The position numbers and the translations under genes are program-made. Below are positions 1,977 through 35,413 of a stretch of 35,438 bases of DNA, piece after piece. The DNA lies in the NCBI GenBank assembly GCA_944324195.1, contig CALUVJ010000011.1:1-35438 (forward strand), read 5' to 3'. This DNA is from Candidatus Gastranaerophilales bacterium. Lineage in GTDB: Bacteria; Cyanobacteriota; Vampirovibrionia; Gastranaerophilales; Gastranaerophilaceae. The notes beneath the pieces are model-generated. The model worked only from the letters and a program-made list of their open reading frames with translations. It did no database searches and was not told where the DNA came from. How positions within the stretch are numbered: the first letter of the stretch is position 1; every line of letters begins with the position of its first letter.

Positions 1977-2021
1977 ATTGTTACAAAAGTTAACATTTCT
2001 TTTGTAAAGTTTTGTAACAAA
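1977..2021. promoter_or_regulatory. Mirror-image pair of TTTGT-N-ACAAA operator-like sites
   Basis: The divergent intergenic region carries TTGTTACAAAA at 1978-1988 and TTTTGTAACAAA at 2010-2021. Each is a palindrome of half-sites TTTGT/ACAAA around one central base, and the 11-base arms are exact inverted copies of each other. One lies upstream of the sigma-28 promoter and the other is 12 bases upstream of composite promoter B. The same palindrome sits 12 bases upstream of composite promoter C near 25735. A dimeric regulator binding site is inferred. Confidence 0.6.
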
Positions 2022-2073
2022 TATGACAAAGTGTGAAATTCGATATTTTTTCTATACTTTATATATATAACAG
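2010..2073 (+). promoter_or_regulatory. Composite promoter module B (for the 2099-3412 gene)
   Basis: TTTTGTAACAAA (2010-2021), 12 bases, TGAAATTC (2034-2041), 12 bases, then ATACTTTATATATATAACAG (2054-2073). Both box sequences and both spacers are the same as in module C (25685-25741), although the spacer sequences differ. Conservation of boxes and distances, but not of spacers, indicates a functional promoter rather than a copied repeat. Confidence 0.75.
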
Positions 2074-2098: not shown

Positions 2099-3412
2099 AT
2101 GAGCAGAATTAATTGCCACAGTTCTTTTAAACACTACGAGATGTTCCACTCCAGATGCGGCGGAAACAATTACGGCAGTATAAATAATACCGTATTTAAT
2201 ATTGACTGTGACGGACACGGCGGATTCTGGGGCGGCTTTGGCTTCGGTTTAGGCAATGCATTCGGCGGCTTCTTCAACAATTGGTTTGGCGGCGGCATGA
2301 ATTTTGGCGGTTTCGGAATGGGCGGATTCTTCCCATCCTTCGGTAACTTTAGTATGGGCGGATTTCCATCATTGTCAGGACTCTGGGGCGGCGGTAATAA
2401 CAATAATTCCAGAGTTTCAGACAGCAATAACAACGGAAAATGTACATGTTCAGAGCACTCTGATTCTGTTTGTAATGACCCTGACAGAACGAAACTTGCC
2501 AACTATACAAGAGAAATAACAAATCTTAGAGCAAAAGAAGATTTAACTCCGGATGAATTAAAAAATTTGTACAATAGGATACTTGCAGACAGAAAATTAA
2601 GCGAAAGCGATCCTAATCATAAATCAACAGACTTACCTGAATACGATGCAATGTTACAAGGTTTAAAAAATGACGGCATTGCTCGCGGCTGGGGCGATAT
2701 TACAACTGATGAATTCGGCAAAAAACCAAACGGCAGCGAGGATGATGGCAACGTTGACGGTGCAGACGACACTGACGGAGCTGGTGATGTCGATGGTGCC
2801 GATGATGCCGATGATGCAGGTAATGCCGGTAATGTTAATGGCGGTGGTGCTGCTGATGTTGTTGACAATGGTGACCCGGCTGGAAATGTTTCAGAAGATG
2901 AGATAACTGTCGGTGGTAAAAAGACAAAAATTGATGATATGACTCCTGACCAAATAAAAGGTATTTCAGATAGTGATATCAAGAATTTAACTCCGGAACA
3001 AGCCGGAAAATTACTTAAGAAATTAGGTATTGAAGACGGCGGAGTTGTAAAAGATGCAAATAACATAACAGTTCTTCTGTTACTTGAAAAAGCCGGTATC
3101 GATGTTAAATTCGCAGAAAATACTCACGAATCAGTAACAGACAACTGGATTCAAGGTAAAATTACAAATGTTAAGAAAGATAAAGACGGCAAAATCTCTT
3201 ATTCAGTAGATTGTACAAAACACGGTACACAAAAGAATATATATAACTTCGTACAGAAAGAGGAAAATTCTAATACCTATAAAGTAACCATCAAAGAAAT
3301 GGGTGAAGGTGTAAATTACGCCGACCAAAATGTAAAAGAAGTAGAATATACATATGATTCTTCAAAAGGTTATTTAACTCGTAACGGGTACAAATTCACA
3401 ACAAAACAGTAA
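2099..3412 (+). CDS. Gly/Phe-rich, Asp/Gly-rich low-complexity protein, unknown function
   Basis: A 437-residue protein from the ATG at 2099, which follows GAGG at 9 bases. Upstream in-frame starts would fall inside the promoter. The N-terminus (about 1-40) has several Cys and His. A Gly/Phe-rich tract (about 40-105) of GGF, FGG and GMGG motifs follows. After a short Cys-containing linker comes a helical part (about 130-200), then a D-G-A-rich tract (about 215-270) with repeated DGADD-like motifs. The last 170 residues look folded, with 'LTPEQAGKLLKKLGIEDG' and beta-rich segments. No classical signal peptide or membrane helix is seen. Asp/Gly tracts could bind calcium and the GF tract could self-associate; both are guesses. 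Monocistronic, with its own promoter and terminator. Confidence 0.8.
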   Translation: MSRINCHSSFKHYEMFHSRCGGNNYGSINNTVFNIDCDGHGGFWGGFGFGLGNAFGGFFNNWFGGGMNFGGFGMGGFFPSFGNFSMGGFPSLSGLWGGGNNNNSRVSDSNNNGKCTCSEHSDSVCNDPDRTKLANYTREITNLRAKEDLTPDELKNLYNRILADRKLSESDPNHKSTDLPEYDAMLQGLKNDGIARGWGDITTDEFGKKPNGSEDDGNVDGADDTDGAGDVDGADDADDAGNAGNVNGGGAADVVDNGDPAGNVSEDEITVGGKKTKIDDMTPDQIKGISDSDIKNLTPEQAGKLLKKLGIEDGGVVKDANNITVLLLLEKAGIDVKFAENTHESVTDNWIQGKITNVKKDKDGKISYSVDCTKHGTQKNIYNFVQKEENSNTYKVTIKEMGEGVNYADQNVKEVEYTYDSSKGYLTRNGYKFTTKQ

Positions 3413-4039: not shown

Positions 4040-4065
4040 AAAAAAAAAAGAGTCTTTATGACTCT
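4040..4065 (-). terminator. Intrinsic terminator (end of candidate small RNA)
   Basis: On the minus strand AGAGTC, a 5-base loop and GACTCT (4049-4065) are followed by about ten T (4040-4049). The orientation is strictly minus, because no T-run follows on the plus strand. No gene on that strand lies between it and promoter E. Confidence 0.7.
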
Positions 4066-4130
4066 AAAAACTTTAATGTGTGAAGTGTAGTATATATGTG
4101 TATGTGTAGTATAAAAAGTTGAATTAATAT
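4040..4130 (-). ncRNA. Candidate small RNA (about 90 nt)
   Basis: Composite promoter E (4131-4169, minus strand) points into a gene-free stretch that ends at a clear intrinsic terminator (4040-4065). Between them there is no ATG-started frame of useful length. The predicted RNA would start near 4130, with an unstructured A/C/U-rich 5' part (UACACAUACAC-like), and end in the stem AGAGTC/GACTCT plus a U-tract. This resembles the layout of trans-acting regulatory RNAs. Inference only; no known family is recognised. Confidence 0.45.
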
Positions 4131-4169
4131 CCTTATATATATTAAGTATTTTTAAGATAAGTAATTGAT
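4131..4169 (-). promoter_or_regulatory. Composite promoter module E (faces a gene-free stretch)
   Basis: Minus strand: ATCAATTA (4162-4169), exactly 12 bases, then ATACTTAATATATATAAGG (4131-4149). The spacing equals that of modules A-D and the box shares the CAATT core with A and D. A TGTAA core occurs 13 bases or so further upstream. It is divergent from the promoter of the zinc-ribbon gene. Confidence 0.55.
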
Positions 4170-4205
4170 ATAAACATTTTATAAATTTACATTTCTTAAC
4201 ATTAT

Positions 4206-5763: not shown

Positions 5764-8700
5764 ATGGCAGATATAAATAATTTTACAGAAATTACAGAGA
5801 ATTTTGATACTATAAAAACTTTGCTGAATTCTATTAGAGCTCAGGGGATTTTAAATACCTCCGATGTAGATAAGCTTCTTGCAGGTATTAATTCTAAACT
5901 CGAAAAATTAAACACGGAAGAAGATATAGATTTGATAAAGGTGTTTTTGTCCGAGCTTAAACAAAATTTAGATGAAAGACACAGTGTTTTGTTGTCAAAA
6001 TTTGGCGCCATAGAGTCTTTGTTCTCTAATTTGCTCAAAAATAGTTCTGAAACACTAAAATCTTCAGAAGTGAAAGAGTTATTTGATATTGTTGCAACAA
6101 ATCTCTCTGTTTTTTCAAGAGAAGTTGTTTCGCAAAAGGAAACGCTCTCTGATATAATTTTACGTTTGGACGCAATGAGATCGGATGATTCTTTAAAGAA
6201 AGATTTGATTAAAAATATTTCTTTCTTGAAAAATGATATCGAACGTTTAACAAACGGTTTTGATTCCATTGTTCTCAGTCTTAATGAAAATTTTAAAACT
6301 GTAATTAAGTCGATCTCTTCTGTTGACCCTTCGGAAACAGTGAATAATTTCGGCAAAGAGCTGCAGGATATCGTAAATTCATCTAATACAATACTCTCTG
6401 CAATACAAATGCTTGATAAGAAAAACTTGCAAATAGAAGATGCGATAAAGACCCTTGCTACTCAGGATGACTTGACAAGTGCCAAGAAGTGGATTAGTGA
6501 TTTGGCTGCACAAGAGCAGCTGCTTACACAATCTATTGATAGTTTGGCAGATAAATATTATAAAATAGACAATCTGGCAGATAAAATTGATGCAACTGTA
6601 GAAATTATTGCGGGATTAAAAACTTTAATTGCCGACAAAGATGATAAAGCGGCAGCTGCAATTATTGATAAATTAAACCGGCTTGAAATTGATTTAAGCG
6701 CTATATCTTCCAATAGTTCGTTTGAAGAATTTAAACACTCTCTTGAGGCTGCTTTGAATAATATTTATAATAATTTTAATGTTTTTCAAGAAAGTTTCAA
6801 TAATGCAGCTTCGGAAGTTAAAAAGATTAATGAATCAATTGCGGCTCTTGATTTAAATGTTAATTTTAAGGGCTTAGCTTCAGACTTATCCCGCTCAGAA
6901 CAAAGTATTCGCGAGCATGTGAGCGTAGAAACAGACAAGGTTATTCAGCTTGTTGACGTAAACGCCGCAAGAACTCTGAATGAATTATCAGCCAATGCTG
7001 ATAATTTGGGCGAAAAAATTCATCAGGCTCAAAGTTTAATGTCAACTCTGTGTGAAAAAAGTTTTTCTGAACTGGAAGAAAGTATATTAGGCCTGAAAAC
7101 AATTGTGTCGCAAATTGATGAAAATAATGTATCGGCCAATAATGCCATATTTTCTAACATAACCGACAGATTGGCAATGTTTGAAAATAGTTTAAAAGCT
7201 TCTCTTGAAAAGCAGGAGGACTATGTTTCGACTTCATCTGATGAACTCATTGCTCAAATTAACGGTATTAAAGATTTATCCGGTGTTCTTGATTATAAAC
7301 TGGACTCTTCTGTTATAGAAATTAACAATGCAAAAACCGAATTTTCTACCCTAAGGCAGGCGGTTAATGATATGCTTGCTCTGGATTTCGTAAATAAGGT
7401 TAGTGATTTAAAGGTAGATTTATACGCGGTAAAACAAGATTTAACTACTGCTTTTGAATCTTCTTCCGCTGATTTTTCGGAAAAATTTACCGAAGATTTG
7501 TTCCGTAAATATGAACTTCTGGTAAGTAAGTTGGATAGTGTAGAAGAAGAAATTAAACAGGCTCAGGCATCTGTTTTAAACAACATAAAAACAAGTCTGG
7601 ATAACATTTCATCTTCGCTGGTTGATATTCTCTCTTATGTTAGTTCTGTCAAAGAAGTTAATATCGGTGATGTTGAATCGAAACTTGATAATTTGGCAAA
7701 CGTTATAAGTGATAATAATTTAACCTATATTGAAAACGTCAGAGATATTATTGATACGGCAAGAGTACAAGTTGAAAATAATATTAAAAATTTGCAGGAT
7801 GAAGCAAGTAAGCAGGCTGAGTCCGTAAATTCGCTTTTGAATCTCAACAGTGAAGCAATAAGAGATGATATACGAAATTCATACAATAAAATCCTGGAGG
7901 TGCAGAGCAGGTTTGATGAACTGAAAGATGCTCTCAGATTTAACAATACTGCAGTTAATGAAAATATCAGCAGTGTAATTTCCACTGCGACAGCGTTGAA
8001 AGAAGATTTTGATAATAAGTTAGTTACTTTGAAAAATTCAATTTTAGATAAAGTAGCAGACTTTCAAAAGGAATTTACCTGCGAGAATGCTGATAAAATA
8101 AGCGAACTGAAATTTGCATCAGAAGCTCTTCATACCAAAAGTCTGCAAGTCTCTGATGATATTAAAAATGAACTGAAAGGCGAAATATCTCAGCTTATAG
8201 GCTCCTTAAGACTTAATATAGAAGAATTGACAGAACAATTGGCCGGTACTTCAATCAAGCTTGAGGGGGCAAATCATGATATTGTAAACTGTGTAAAAAA
8301 TGATTTTAGTTCCTCTCTGGAGAATTTTAATTCTCAATTACAAGATTTTTCCGGCTGCATTGATACGAAACTAAACGATGTAATTACAAAATTTAGCGAT
8401 GTAGAACTTTCCGTAAATAACTTATCCGGAACTGCGACAAATGCTTTGGCATCTGCATTAGCAAAAATTTTGGACAATTTTGTGTCATTAAAAACTCTGT
8501 TAGGAAATTTGAATGATAAAACAGCAGATGATATTAGGAACAATGTGGATACGCTCGCTGCTGATTTTGAGAAACTCAGTAAAAAAATTGAAATTGTTGA
8601 TTCCAATATCGATGAAGATTTTACTCGTCAGTTATCTATAATCGAGACTAATTTTGAATATTTAAAGAAGAATATTGCGGATTTATTCGGGCAAACAAAT

Positions 8701-11700
8701 GAAACAATTGACAATACAATAAGTGCCGGCATGGCAAATGTTTCTGCTAATATCCGGGAAACTGTTATAGATAATCTTAATCAGTACAAGGAACAAGTAG
8801 AAAGTTTATTTAATAATATTTCTATAAAAAATGATGAACAAATAAAACTGATGGAATCAAAAGTTATAGAATTAAATAGTATTTTGCAGCAGTCTATGAA
8901 TGAACAAAATATTAAATCTGCAAATACATTAAATGAGTTGACTGAAAATCTAAGAAAAGTTTTGTCTGATAACATCGAGTTAACATTAGCGGATTACAAA
9001 TCTTTGAAAGAAGGTTTAAATAAATTTGCTAAGACAATGGAAAGTCAGAATTCTTCTATTTCAGAATATTTAAAGACTAAACTGGGGGATATTGCTAAAT
9101 TTGTAGATACCGGTTTGAATGTTCAGGCGCAAGCTATAAATGAAAAATTTAACGATATAACATTAGAGGTGAGTGAAATTGCCAGTGCTACAACCGGTTT
9201 AAACAATGAAATAACAAACCGTGTGTCTAAAATTTCGGCAGAAATTAACAATTTGAAATCTGATTTGTCAGATGTTCTGGGTGACAATTCGGAATTGATT
9301 GCCAATAAGCTGGAAGTCATTCTTGCACAGCTTACTGAGGGTTACAACAAACTTTCCGCTTCAACAATTGCAGCGGTTTCAGAAACAAAAGACAGTATTA
9401 CGGTAAATGTATCTAATGAAATCAATAATTTAAAGACGGCATTATCTGATGTGTTGGGTGATAGCTTCGGTTCAGTATCAGACAGAATAGATGATGTTCT
9501 TACTCACCTGTCGGATGAATGTAACAGCTTGTCGATATCCGCAGCAAAAGCGGGTACGGATACGACAGCTGCCTTAACCCAAAAGTTCTCGGAAGGTATT
9601 AACCGCTTAAAATCTGATTTGTCGCAGGTTTTGGGCGACAAGTCTGAACAAATTGTAAATAAATTAAATGTTATATTTGCAAATAAAGCTGAAGAAATTA
9701 ATAATTCATTAGCAGCAACTGCTAAATTATCTGAAGATTTAAAGGAAGGTATTAACCAAAAACTTTCTGATGAAATTAATGATTTAAAAGTAGGTCTTTC
9801 TACGGTTTTTGTAGACAGTTCCGGCTCCGTAATGAATAAAATGGATGTGGTTTTAGATGAAATTTATTCTGAATATGATAAATTACAAGCAGGAATTGTT
9901 AGTGCAATATCAGCTTCAGGTACCGAAATAGGTGAAAATCTAAACAGTGCGGTTCAGAATTCATCCGGGGTTTTAAATGCAGGTCTGGTTGAATTAAAAG
10001 AGAAGATGGAAAGTCTTTCTGAAGCTCAGCAAAGCAACCTGGCTTCGCAAATTTACGCCGTATTAAATGAAATCAAAAATCTTAACAATGATGTTGCAGA
10101 AAAGACAACTCTCATTAAACAGGCGGTATCAGAAGATGTCGCTGCAGAATTGAAAGGTTTAGCTGATAAAATTAATTCGTTGTTTGAAGAGCATTCTTTA
10201 AATATTCTAAAGCAATACAATGATGGCAGTTCAAAATTTTCCGAACTGTTGAATGCTAAAACTGCCGAATTTATGACGTCTTTACAAAGTTTAAATGATA
10301 GACTGGATAAGAATGACATATCATATGCAGATGTTTTTCAAACTCAGTTAAAGGATTTAAGCGTGTCATTTAATACATTGCTTGAAGAAACCAAAAATGC
10401 AACAAAGGCTGAATTTTCATCTATTGTAGAGACTCTTTTGGATAACCATCAAGAAACAATTCAAGAAGTTGAAATAGCCATAGATGATAAGGTTAATTCC
10501 ATACTGGCAGTAAGTGCAGATATTTCGGCCGGTGAATTGCAGTCTATGGAAGTTTTTGCCAATAAGATTTTAGAGCAAATTAATATAAGCAAAGATACTG
10601 TCGTCTCTTGTCGTGATTTTATAACCAATTTTGTAAAAAGCGAAGTTGAGATAATTTCCGGCGATATTGAAAAGGAGACAGATGTAATTGTCAAAGATTT
10701 GCTGGAACAGATGGATATAATGAAGGGGGCTCAAAAAGATGAGCTTTCCAAATTAGCAATTCAACTGGAAAATGTGGTTGAAGATTGTATATATAATAAT
10801 ATTAATGAGTTAAAATCTTATATTGATATTAAAAATGATACATCAGTTTTAAATAGCAAAATAGATAATATAAATTCGGAATTGAGCCGTACTGCGGAAG
10901 ATATACTTGCCGTTTCCGGTAAATTGCTTGAAGCAAGTGTATTTGAAAATACAATTTCCGATATGAAATCTGCTAATAATGTTCTGATTACATCTATGGC
11001 AGAAAATTTGAACAAACAAATTCAAAATTTTGTACAATCAAATATAACTCAATGTATTGATGACAGATTTAATTTATTTGATAAAAAGTTTGTTGATACA
11101 GTTGTTGACAAGTATGAAGAGCTAAAATTAATTTCAACACAGTATAATAATGCTTTTGATACAATTCAGGCATCTGTAAAGGATTTATTATCACGGTTTA
11201 CTGAGTCTAAAGAAGAAATATACAGAACATTACTATCTGTATTGAATGGTATAAATGGTGAAATTGACGAATTAAACTTAAGTTTTGCTGATTTAAAGGC
11301 GCATATTTTAAACAAGTCTTTTGATGAAGCATTCCAAGCATCAATTAATACTCAGATAAATGGTATTCAGGAACTTATCCAGAAGCAGTTTGGTTATTTG
11401 GAAGATATTAGTGAGTTGTGCTGCAGCAATTTACCGGAATTAACAGAAATGAATGCTCTTGTAAAATACAATATTTTACAAAGTATTGCGGAGGTTAATT
11501 CAAAGCTTGGAGCCCAGGAAACATCTGTTCATCAAGAGTTAGTGTCTTTAAAGACTGATATTATCACTCAGTTTTTGAATATTTTTAATCAAATATCTTT
11601 TGTAACTGAGCAAGAAGAAATTCTTGATTTTATTCAAGATAAGCATGCTGAATTAATTACAATATTAAGTCATATTGTTACTGCTGCTGAAGATGTTGAA

Positions 11701-12753
11701 AGTATAAAAGATAATCTGGCTGCAGTTGACATAAAAGTTGATAATATCAAAGATGATATTAATATTTTAAATGAAAAAATTGCATCTATTATTTCAAGTG
11801 ACGGCGATATAGATTATGTATACAGTTTACAAGATTTGGAATCTGATATTGCGAAATTAAGATTAACATTAAATGAGTTAAAAGAAAATAATAATTCAAA
11901 AGAGCTGGAAGAGTTAATAAATTCAACTAACGGTATTTATAATCTTGTGGACTCTTTGAAAAAAGAATTACCAAAGTTTGATGTTGAAGAATTTAAAAAA
12001 GATTTTGAAGCTTTGAATGAAGATATTGTCAGCATAAGCACCAGGACAAACAAATTGATACTTGCATCTGACGAATCATACAAAACTTTGCAAGAAAATT
12101 TGCAAGACTTTAAGCTTGTTATAAATGATTTAGATGAACGGACAAGAAATTTTGCTCATGAATCAGGGCTTGATAAAATCGATAACAAGTTAGGCGTAAT
12201 AAATTCAATGATTCAAAGCGGTGCAAAAACAAATCAGGTATTTAATCAGGTGTTTGAATACCTTGCGGAGTGGGTTGACAATGCGGGAGCACAAATTACG
12301 GCAATTTCCGATAAGGTGGAAACTCTGGATGATATTGGCCAAATTAAGGTAATGCTTGAAGATTTGAAAGCTGAAGCTGAAGATAATTCTGAAAGCACAG
12401 AATTAATTGAAGCTTTAAGTAATGTATTTGATAAACAAGCTAAGAAGATAAGTTCTTTAGAAGCCAAATTGGATAGAGTAATTGTTGAAACAACAATTAG
12501 TAATAAAAATAACAAGATTGATATGGCTCCTATTGAAGAAACTTTAAATAGATTTTTGGTAGCTATTGATGATAAAATGATATCTCAACAGGCGAAAATA
12601 AATTCTTTGGAATCTAAGCTGGAAGATGTAATGTCAATGATAAATCCGAATGATACAGTTCAACTTACCAAAAAAGTTGGCGGTATGGATAGACAAATTG
12701 CAAAATTAAATAAAAGTATTGAAAAAATAGCGTCACATGTTGTTGAAAAGTAA
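5764..12753 (+). CDS. Giant coiled-coil protein, unknown function
   Basis: A 2329-residue protein with no family I recognise. Almost its whole length is predicted alpha-helical coiled coil, rich in Asn, Asp, Glu, Lys, Leu, Ser and Ile with heptad spacing. I count only about five prolines. There is no signal peptide, no membrane helix and no catalytic motif. Residues about 1160-1395 contain four copies of a 59-residue unit with the pattern 'EINxLKxxLSxVLGDxS...NKLxVIL', at an exact 177-bp period; a weaker copy may precede them. The last 160 residues end in short coiled coils (LESKLEDVM, LNKSIEKIA). It should be a cytoplasmic rod or filament hundreds of nanometres long if fully extended. It is first in an operon and overlaps the FAD oxidase gene by 17 bases. 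A cytoskeletal, spacer or chromosome-organising role is possible but not shown. Confidence 0.9.
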   Translation: MADINNFTEITENFDTIKTLLNSIRAQGILNTSDVDKLLAGINSKLEKLNTEEDIDLIKVFLSELKQNLDERHSVLLSKFGAIESLFSNLLKNSSETLKSSEVKELFDIVATNLSVFSREVVSQKETLSDIILRLDAMRSDDSLKKDLIKNISFLKNDIERLTNGFDSIVLSLNENFKTVIKSISSVDPSETVNNFGKELQDIVNSSNTILSAIQMLDKKNLQIEDAIKTLATQDDLTSAKKWISDLAAQEQLLTQSIDSLADKYYKIDNLADKIDATVEIIAGLKTLIADKDDKAAAAIIDKLNRLEIDLSAISSNSSFEEFKHSLEAALNNIYNNFNVFQESFNNAASEVKKINESIAALDLNVNFKGLASDLSRSEQSIREHVSVETDKVIQLVDVNAARTLNELSANADNLGEKIHQAQSLMSTLCEKSFSELEESILGLKTIVSQIDENNVSANNAIFSNITDRLAMFENSLKASLEKQEDYVSTSSDELIAQINGIKDLSGVLDYKLDSSVIEINNAKTEFSTLRQAVNDMLALDFVNKVSDLKVDLYAVKQDLTTAFESSSADFSEKFTEDLFRKYELLVSKLDSVEEEIKQAQASVLNNIKTSLDNISSSLVDILSYVSSVKEVNIGDVESKLDNLANVISDNNLTYIENVRDIIDTARVQVENNIKNLQDEASKQAESVNSLLNLNSEAIRDDIRNSYNKILEVQSRFDELKDALRFNNTAVNENISSVISTATALKEDFDNKLVTLKNSILDKVADFQKEFTCENADKISELKFASEALHTKSLQVSDDIKNELKGEISQLIGSLRLNIEELTEQLAGTSIKLEGANHDIVNCVKNDFSSSLENFNSQLQDFSGCIDTKLNDVITKFSDVELSVNNLSGTATNALASALAKILDNFVSLKTLLGNLNDKTADDIRNNVDTLAADFEKLSKKIEIVDSNIDEDFTRQLSIIETNFEYLKKNIADLFGQTNETIDNTISAGMANVSANIRETVIDNLNQYKEQVESLFNNISIKNDEQIKLMESKVIELNSILQQSMNEQNIKSANTLNELTENLRKVLSDNIELTLADYKSLKEGLNKFAKTMESQNSSISEYLKTKLGDIAKFVDTGLNVQAQAINEKFNDITLEVSEIASATTGLNNEITNRVSKISAEINNLKSDLSDVLGDNSELIANKLEVILAQLTEGYNKLSASTIAAVSETKDSITVNVSNEINNLKTALSDVLGDSFGSVSDRIDDVLTHLSDECNSLSISAAKAGTDTTAALTQKFSEGINRLKSDLSQVLGDKSEQIVNKLNVIFANKAEEINNSLAATAKLSEDLKEGINQKLSDEINDLKVGLSTVFVDSSGSVMNKMDVVLDEIYSEYDKLQAGIVSAISASGTEIGENLNSAVQNSSGVLNAGLVELKEKMESLSEAQQSNLASQIYAVLNEIKNLNNDVAEKTTLIKQAVSEDVAAELKGLADKINSLFEEHSLNILKQYNDGSSKFSELLNAKTAEFMTSLQSLNDRLDKNDISYADVFQTQLKDLSVSFNTLLEETKNATKAEFSSIVETLLDNHQETIQEVEIAIDDKVNSILAVSADISAGELQSMEVFANKILEQINISKDTVVSCRDFITNFVKSEVEIISGDIEKETDVIVKDLLEQMDIMKGAQKDELSKLAIQLENVVEDCIYNNINELKSYIDIKNDTSVLNSKIDNINSELSRTAEDILAVSGKLLEASVFENTISDMKSANNVLITSMAENLNKQIQNFVQSNITQCIDDRFNLFDKKFVDTVVDKYEELKLISTQYNNAFDTIQASVKDLLSRFTESKEEIYRTLLSVLNGINGEIDELNLSFADLKAHILNKSFDEAFQASINTQINGIQELIQKQFGYLEDISELCCSNLPELTEMNALVKYNILQSIAEVNSKLGAQETSVHQELVSLKTDIITQFLNIFNQISFVTEQEEILDFIQDKHAELITILSHIVTAAEDVESIKDNLAAVDIKVDNIKDDINILNEKIASIISSDGDIDYVYSLQDLESDIAKLRLTLNELKENNNSKELEELINSTNGIYNLVDSLKKELPKFDVEEFKKDFEALNEDIVSISTRTNKLILASDESYKTLQENLQDFKLVINDLDERTRNFAHESGLDKIDNKLGVINSMIQSGAKTNQVFNQVFEYLAEWVDNAGAQITAISDKVETLDDIGQIKVMLEDLKAEAEDNSESTELIEALSNVFDKQAKKISSLEAKLDRVIVETTISNKNNKIDMAPIEETLNRFLVAIDDKMISQQAKINSLESKLEDVMSMINPNDTVQLTKKVGGMDRQIAKLNKSIEKIASHVVEK
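9241..9948 (+). repeat. Four tandem 177-bp (59-codon) coding repeats
   Basis: Units begin at 9241, 9418, 9595 and 9772, exactly 177 bp apart, each starting with an Ile-Asn-x-Leu-Lys type motif and continuing to (V/F)-(L/V)-(G/V)-D. The DNA has diverged while the period is kept to the base, so the duplications are old and held by protein-level constraint. A possible fifth, degenerate unit begins at 9064. Confidence 0.75.
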
Positions 12754-25225: not shown

Positions 25226-25657
25226 TTAAGACTGCAATAAACCTGTGTCCTGAGCAGCATTTTGAGTTGCTGTCTTTTGACCTTCTTGTTGAGCTCTTAA
25301 TTGTTCAAGCATTGATTCATACATCGTTTGCATTGTGTCATACTCAACATCCATTTCTGCAAGTTCTAATGATAATTCCTCGTTATATTGTTTAACTTTT
25401 GCATGGGCATATGCGTCGGCCAGTTGCTCATTTTTGTTATTTTCTGCAACTCTTACGCCGCCTACATTTAATTCTTTTGTGTTATCAATTGCTGAATCAA
25501 ATGCACTTTCCCATTTTTCTTCGTATTTAACTTGTTTTTCTAACTTTGCACTGTTAGCTTCATATTTACCGCTCCAGTAAATTTGCTGCTGAGTGTAGTA
25601 GTTAATTTCTGCATTTGTGTTTAATAATGTTCCTAATAAAGCTGCTGTGTTTGCCAT
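25226..25657 (-). CDS. Small helical protein of unknown function
   Basis: A 143-residue protein beginning 'MANTAALLGTLLNTNAEINYY'. It is almost entirely helical, with a Glu/Lys coiled-coil stretch (about 30-60), another at about 85-120 ('EELSLELAEMDVEYDTMQTMYESMLEQLRAQQ') and a disordered Gln/Ala/Thr-rich tail. No signal peptide or membrane helix. The ATG at 25657 has AAAGG 9 bases upstream. Its promoter is composite module C with an upstream palindrome. Size and helical make-up resemble the 281-793 product and both begin with short hydrophobic helices, though I see no clear sequence homology. Confidence 0.75.
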   Translation of the reverse strand: MANTAALLGTLLNTNAEINYYTQQQIYWSGKYEANSAKLEKQVKYEEKWESAFDSAIDNTKELNVGGVRVAENNKNEQLADAYAHAKVKQYNEELSLELAEMDVEYDTMQTMYESMLEQLRAQQEGQKTATQNAAQDTGLLQS

Positions 25658-25684: not shown

Positions 25685-25741
25685 ATATATAAAGTATTTA
25701 CGAAATATTGAATTTCAAAATAAGTTTACTTTGTTACAAAA
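25685..25741 (-). promoter_or_regulatory. Composite promoter module C with upstream palindrome
   Basis: Minus strand: TTTTGTAACAAA (25730-25741), 12 bases, TGAAATTC (25710-25717), 12 bases, ATACTTTATATAT (25685-25697). It matches module B at every box and both distances. It reads towards the 25226-25657 gene. Confidence 0.75.
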
Positions 25742-25750
25742 CTTAACAAA

Positions 25751-25814: not shown

Positions 25815-26018
25815 TTAGTTGTTGCTTAATACTAATCTGAAAGTTGCTAAATTTTTAATAGAAAGCATTTTATGTTTGTTAGCTTGCTTTTCAGAGATAG
25901 CGAATATTCTGCAAATTCTCTGGATTTCTTCTATATCTTGTCTTGTTTCAAGTTTGTAAACATTTTTAATAGGATCTGCTATAACTGACATTGTGGCGTT
26001 TAATTCTTCTTCTTTCAT
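25815..26018 (-). CDS. 67-residue helical protein of unknown function
   Basis: A short, highly charged helical protein that begins 'MKEEELNATMSVIADPIKNVYK', followed by 'TRQDIEEIQRICRIFAISEKQANKHKML'. No family recognised and no membrane segment. The ATG at 26018 follows AAGGA at 8 bases. It has its own composite promoter (module D, 26046-26078) and a strong terminator just after its stop, which argues that this short gene is real. Promoter D matches promoter A of the 281-793 gene, so the two are probably expressed under the same conditions. Confidence 0.75.
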   Translation of the reverse strand: MKEEELNATMSVIADPIKNVYKLETRQDIEEIQRICRIFAISEKQANKHKMLSIKNLATFRLVLSNN

Positions 26019-26045: not shown

Positions 26046-26078
26046 ATATATAAAGTATTTCACGTTGATAAAATTGCC
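26046..26078 (-). promoter_or_regulatory. Composite promoter module D (for the 25815-26018 gene)
   Basis: Minus strand: GGCAATTT (26071-26078), exactly 12 bases, ATACTTTATATAT (26046-26058). The 8-mer, its preceding A-run and the spacing are the same as module A. A CTTAATATT lies 13 bases upstream, comparable to CTTAACAAA in A. Confidence 0.7.
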
Positions 26079-35305: not shown

Positions 35306-35413
35306 GAAATATATGTTTTGATACTTATTATGTAAAATTATGTAACATTAAATAAAAAACATGTTATAGAATATTTAAATGTGGCATATACTATATATAA
35401 GGATATATGCACC

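Follow-up and report, generated by a model that had tools for sequence, protein, structure and literature searches.

The promoters that RpaB controls in photosynthetic cyanobacteria carry the HLR1 box, with the consensus KTTACAWW-N2-KTTACAWW; a box at about −66 to −45 leads to activation, and a box that overlaps the transcription start leads to repression (PMC13421787). In Synechocystis, RpaB controls the small RNA (sRNA) PsrR1 and the group-2 sigma gene sigD (PMC13421787). RpaA, RpaB and NblS have also been reported in non-photosynthetic Melainabacteria by Di Rienzi et al. (2013) and Soo et al. (2014), who assigned them no function in these organisms and considered that they might have another one (PMC3787301, PMC4040986).

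We analysed a stretch of 35,438 nt (hereafter, the window) from a Candidatus Gastranaerophilales bacterium, in which an earlier, sequence-only reading had proposed a five-copy composite promoter. Like the HLR1/RpaB promoters of photosynthetic cyanobacteria, this promoter has an 18-bp tandem box with a 10-bp period upstream of the core, at what may be about the activation distance, and an RpaB ortholog is encoded in most of the host genomes searched. Unlike them, it belongs to non-photosynthetic fermenters and mostly precedes genes for unknown proteins rather than photosystem genes; its box is often reversed, the spacing between box and core is rigid and the core is undescribed. The proposal that the regulon had not been described agrees with our literature search, which was limited and in which absence is no proof: neither the promoter nor the sRNA at site E had been described in the papers it covered, and none of them reported HLR1 boxes from Melainabacteria.

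The composite promoter and its core

All five proposed copies were present, namely A at 855-887 (−), B at 2034-2073 (+), C at 25685-25717 (−), D at 26046-26078 (−) and E at 4131-4169 (−), each with a 12-base gap between an upstream 8-mer and the downstream element. Reduced to AATT-N13-ATACTTWATATAT, the composite occurs 5 times in the window versus 0.00 in 100 dinucleotide shuffles. The genome-wide scan suggested by the earlier reading (1.84 Mb, 115 contigs) returned 21 exact composites and no match to the reversed pattern; the 13-mer ATACTTWATATAT was found 24 times, with AATT at the exact composite distance in 21 cases. Across 37 genomes (the source genome, 21 others of its genus and 15 from other families of the order), the composite was detected in 35, with 13-38 copies per same-genus genome and 0-7 per genome of the other families, and the reversed control gave zero in all genomes except one. 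A scan of about 85,000 species, each represented by one genome, gave at least 80 matches; all those listed were Gastranaerophilales, Melainabacteria or Cyanobacteria by name, or unnamed or misnamed metagenome-assembled genomes (MAGs), and their source habitat was mostly gut or rumen. The composite pattern is real, lineage-wide and beyond chance.

The pattern was also present in 12 contigs of the IMG/VR viral collection, several of which carry it before a 94-98-aa protein. A homolog of this protein is a promoter target in the source genome (contig C5), and an identical core lies at the end of contig C87. It is possible that phages or other mobile elements make use of the host promoter.

We collected 100 distinct sites from 7 genomes (80 read from six relatives plus 22 from the source genome). 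The upstream element of the earlier reading is real, but its 8-mers reduce to [GT][CA]AATT. Nearly all sites are of one of two types, AAAAAAGGCAATT (NCAATT; 67 sites) or TGAAATT (NAAATT; 32 sites). The full core is [GT][CA]AATT-N13-ATACTTTATATAT, with CAATT/CTTTATATA as its conserved heart; because the 100 sites were picked by the core pattern, the core columns are invariant by construction. An independent view came from sites anchored on the tail of the site E sRNA in 25 species, for which the promoter search tolerated up to 4 mismatches. There, CAATT, CTT and ATA were invariant and the gap was always 13, and the remaining letters of the −10 varied.

In the window, the −35-like and −10-like elements lie at 881-886 (GCAATT) and 855-867 (ATACTTTATATAT) on the minus strand for promoter A, at 2035-2040 (GAAATT) and 2054-2066 (ATACTTTATATAT) on the plus strand for B, and on the minus strand for the other three: at 25711-25716 (GAAATT) and 25685-25697 (ATACTTTATATAT) for C, at 26072-26077 (GCAATT) and 26046-26058 (ATACTTTATATAT) for D, and at 4163-4168 (TCAATT) and 4137-4149 (ATACTTAATATAT) for E. 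The distance from the 13-mer to the first open reading frame (ORF) or start codon peaks at 20-40 nt. According to the earlier reading, a pattern as common inside genes as between them would speak against a promoter; only 9 of the 80 sites fetched from relatives overlap an ORF of at least 90 aa, and these are mostly start-codon over-extensions or short ORFs.

The core did not match the sigmaA promoter TTGACA-N17-TATAAT, and the sigma28 element TAAAGTTT-N11-GCCGATAA was absent from these cores. Instead, we observed conserved −35 and −10 elements unlike those of sigmaA at a fixed spacing (CAATT-N13-CTTTATATA), as would be looked for in an alternative-sigma promoter, including at the 25 RNA-anchored sites.

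The HLR1-type box, RpaB and candidate sigma factors

The sequence TTTTGTAACAAA upstream of promoters B and C had been described as a palindrome. It is better read as part of a longer, 18-bp direct repeat with a 10-bp period, of which it forms the right half: TTTGTAAAGTTTTGTAAC in B (2001-2018) and TTTGTTAAGTTTTGTAAC in C (25733-25750). This repeat matches HLR1: the box of promoter B scores 16/16 on the minus strand (GTTACAAAACTTTACAAA) and that of promoter C 15/16 on the plus strand (GTTACAAAACTTAACAAA). HLR1-like boxes also precede promoter A (901-918, −; TTAACAAATCTTAACAAA, 14/16) and promoter E (4186-4203, +; TTTACATTTCTTAACATT, 15/16). The best box of promoter D (12/16) was no better than those in shuffled sequence.

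Among all 100 sites, 77 had an HLR1 match of at least 14/16, and 28 a perfect one. Such matches were present at 32 of 32 TGAAATT-type sites (17 perfect) and 67% of GCAATT-type sites, compared with about 4% of shuffled upstream regions. At 26 of the 32 TGAAATT-type sites, the box was reversed and stood at an identical position. No good box was present at site D or at about a fifth of the GCAATT-type sites. When the spacer between half-sites was varied, a 2-base spacer (10-bp period) gave 77 of 100 sites, whereas other spacings gave 11-18. PhoB-type boxes have an 11-bp period. Like the tandem boxes of PhoB and PhoP, those described here are promoter-upstream direct repeats of the kind to which OmpR-family regulators bind; unlike for PhoB and PhoP, an 11-bp period scored no better here than other spacings. 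The box ends about 15 nt before the core and spans −53 to −36 relative to the 13-mer, which corresponds to about −71 to −54 or −66 to −49 from the transcription start, depending on the start assumed. A location some 50-70 nt ahead of the probable start would be near the published window for activation, −66 to −45.

Allowing at most one mismatch, the source genome contains 125 HLR1 boxes versus 36 matches to the reversed pattern, so the box is used beyond the AATT-N13 promoter class. Perfect-box loci include a second class, in which a box in reverse orientation is followed by TAAAGTTT..GCCGATA, a sigma28 promoter. In 12 of 14 sigma28-type promoters of the source genome, a gap of 17 nt separated the best box from TAAAG, and by reading a box is also present at the 17-nt gap in the other two; since most of these loci were picked by their box, box presence is biased here and the spacing is not. 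Both classes stand back to back in the window, where the box at 2001-2018 serves promoter B and the adjoining box at 1980-1997 (+; GTTACAAAAGTTAACATT, 15/16) serves the divergent sigma28-type core TAAAGTTTTTTTTAATTGTGCCGAT (1938-1962, −) of the ORF at 1479-1886 (−). A third kind, with an HLR1 box upstream of a sigmaA-like promoter, was found near 35329-35346. Flagellin genes (C2:2264 and C2:41655) and many sigma28-type promoters were also preceded by HLR1 boxes, and several of these promoters drive "MGMAASQ.." proteins.

The recurrence of the same box at a fixed distance before sigma28-type promoters implies that box and core are separate modules; by analogy, the new core would be read by a further sigma factor. 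The two promoter types of this genome share the box and its distance, each with a core of alternative-sigma type (putative for the new class), whereas the sigma28 (FliA/WhiG) core TAAAGTTT-N11-GCCGATAA is unrelated in sequence to [GT][CA]AATT-N13-ATACTTTATATAT. The earlier suggestion of either an alternative sigma factor or an activator-dependent class need not be a choice, as the evidence favours both: a box that matches HLR1 and a separate core that is neither sigmaA nor sigma28.

As for the regulator, an OmpR-type response regulator from a relative (G009) passes the NCBIfam RpaB equivalog model NF045944 (353.8 bits versus a cut-off of 330). Orthologs were found in 29 of 34 genomes searched, including the source genome, whose ortholog (contig C17) is 93% identical to that of G009. 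In the remaining five, which are draft genomes, no RpaB was found at E ≤ 1e-60; these genomes do carry the promoter, and some of them are nearly complete MAGs. The source genome has a second RpaB-like gene (contig C85, 3922-4659), 86% identical to the query, which may represent MAG contamination or a paralog.

The source genome has nine sigma70-type genes. Besides SigA, they encode two group-2 factors whose recognition helices resemble that of SigA, one factor each of the FliA/WhiG and SigB/F types, two ECF factors, a small factor whose gene adjoins an integrase-like gene, and a divergent group-2-like factor on contig C63. The C63-type factor differs from SigA in region 2.4 (WWIKQAMFKAISEQ in place of WWIRQAITRAIADQ) and region 4.2 (GVTKECIRQT in place of GVTRERIRQI), at the positions that read the −10 and the −35. 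Of the genomes searched, only G001 and G024 have no relative of it, and by eye HLR1-like boxes lie upstream of the gene in most genus members examined. On these sequence features, the divergent factor is the best candidate for reading the new core. Against this link, G024 has 2 promoter sites yet no such sigma gene, and other families have the sigma yet only 0-7 exact sites. The idea that the C63-type factor regulates itself through an AATT-N13 core was rejected; the core upstream of its gene is sigmaA-like. A conserved 26-bp palindrome, TATACTTxTGATATATCAxAAGTATA, also lies upstream of this gene, where it overlaps the sigmaA-like −10; it is probably the operator of some regulator.

Targets and the small RNA at site E

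As had been claimed, targets A-D are proteins with no confident family assignment (by Pfam scan for A-C), and for each of them, homologs in other species are likewise preceded by this promoter. Target A (281-793, −) has 170 aa and a homolog in one other genome. The 437-aa target B (2099-3412, +) is rich in Gly and Asn and has homologs in two. Target C (25226-25657, −; 143 aa), with homologs in four other genomes, is predicted to form a long helical hairpin (pLDDT 76), and target D (25815-26018, −; 67 aa) has a homolog in G009. For another target, of 302 aa, AlphaFold gave a model of low quality (pLDDT 52). Pfam scans of targets across the class gave only CHAP, matrixin and weak coiled-coil matches; by eye, targets elsewhere include one protein similar to CopG and one that resembles a subunit of ferredoxin-NADP reductase. 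Most outputs of the class are proteins to which no function can be assigned, and many of these are small; at least one sRNA is also among the outputs.

This sRNA lies behind promoter E, which has no ORF downstream. Its length is about 80-140 nt depending on the species and about 90 nt in the window (4040-4131, −, with the 5′ end placed by prediction). The RNA consists of a nearly invariant unstructured stretch, ACTACACTTCACACATTAAA, in which ACUACACUUCACAC is part of the invariant portion, and a terminator (AGAGTCATAAAGACTC-T10). In 25 species the RNA follows this same promoter, and its DNA was matched in all 34 genus genomes searched. An Rfam 15 scan of the window returned only tRNA and no family for this RNA. 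Like PsrR1 of Synechocystis, it would belong to an RpaB-type regulon, as predicted here, and it combines an unstructured conserved stretch with a terminator. The Synechocystis RpaB regulon is further resembled in that an sRNA is among the targets and HLR1-like boxes, judged by eye, precede a group-2-like sigma gene; the pairing of sigD and PsrR1 with this sigma gene and sRNA may be regarded as a loose parallel.

Two side observations were made. A 2329-aa protein encoded at 5764-12753 of the window has apolipoprotein-like coiled-coil repeats (below the Pfam cut-off) and is syntenic near E-type sites in relatives. A full-length FHIPEP (FlhA-like) gene is found twice in most genomes, at C38:14447-16423 and C64:1171-3162 in the source genome, and in several species one of the two has a promoter copy close behind. 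Type III secretion was considered as an organising theme and rejected: a separate secretion system is unsupported because the genus has many flagellins and one set lies in the flagellar operon of a relative from the order.

Competing explanations and significance

We consider it likely, judging from the sequence comparisons, that these sites form a lineage-wide Gastranaerophilales promoter class that combines HLR1/RpaB activation with an alternative-sigma core. RpaB, an OmpR-type response regulator, would bind the upstream box and activate transcription, a direction suggested by the position of the box. The core [GT][CA]AATT-N13-ATACTTTATATAT would be read by an alternative sigma factor rather than by SigA, with the divergent group-2-like factor of contig C63, conserved across the order, as the best candidate. 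One activator may then feed two or more sigma regulons, given the same box before sigma28-type (FliA/WhiG) promoters. Coincidence in AT-rich DNA (34% G+C) is refuted by the zero counts that shuffled sequence and almost every reversed control gave, and its probability is virtually nil. It is also very improbable that a dispersed repeat or mobile-element remnant carried the promoter around. Some near-identical copies do occur at contig ends and on viral-collection contigs; for most sites, this origin is refuted by spacers that are unrelated, as the earlier reading had claimed, by many unrelated targets and by the retention of homologous sites across species.

Two further alternatives keep the architecture and change one of its readers. 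SigA or a SigA-like group-2 factor could read the core, with RpaB offsetting a poor −35 and no new sigma specificity involved. We think this rather unlikely: TATATA is similar to a −10, the genome encodes SigA as well as two group-2 factors whose recognition helices are like those of SigA, and HLR1 boxes also precede sigmaA-like promoters such as that near 35329-35346, but the invariant CAATT 13 nt upstream is unlike TTGACA, the 13-mer is conserved far beyond a −10, and the sigma28 promoters show the box paired with cores of other sigma factors. That the box is bound by a different OmpR-family regulator, either RpaA or an unrelated PhoB-type protein, seems unlikely, as both the HLR1 consensus and the 10-bp period are matched and the RpaB assignment is at equivalog level. 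Pointing the other way, tandem half-sites are common to OmpR-type regulators, the paralog RpaA, which may have similar sites, has been reported in these genomes (PMC3787301), and no RpaB was found in 5 of the 34 genomes.

Returning to the RpaB-activated class with an alternative-sigma core, we tentatively extend it to a possible arrangement in which RpaB would be a hub working with several sigma factors, one of them new and order-specific (CAATT-N13-CTTTATATA), and would control a lineage-specific set made up of small proteins (possibly exported), genes of the sigma28 type and a new sRNA. If this is true, either photosynthesis is not what the RpaB circuit was built for, or the circuit was wholly rewired in Gastranaerophilales. 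RpaB has been noted in non-photosynthetic cyanobacteria since 2013 without a function, and a candidate regulon can now be given. Together, the promoter set, the predicted box, the core with its candidate sigma factor and the sRNA make the role of RpaB without photosynthesis testable. They bear on whether this cyanobacterial light and redox regulator predates photosynthesis in the lineage, and they provide a starting point for the study of dozens of unknown proteins from gut bacteria of a common group.
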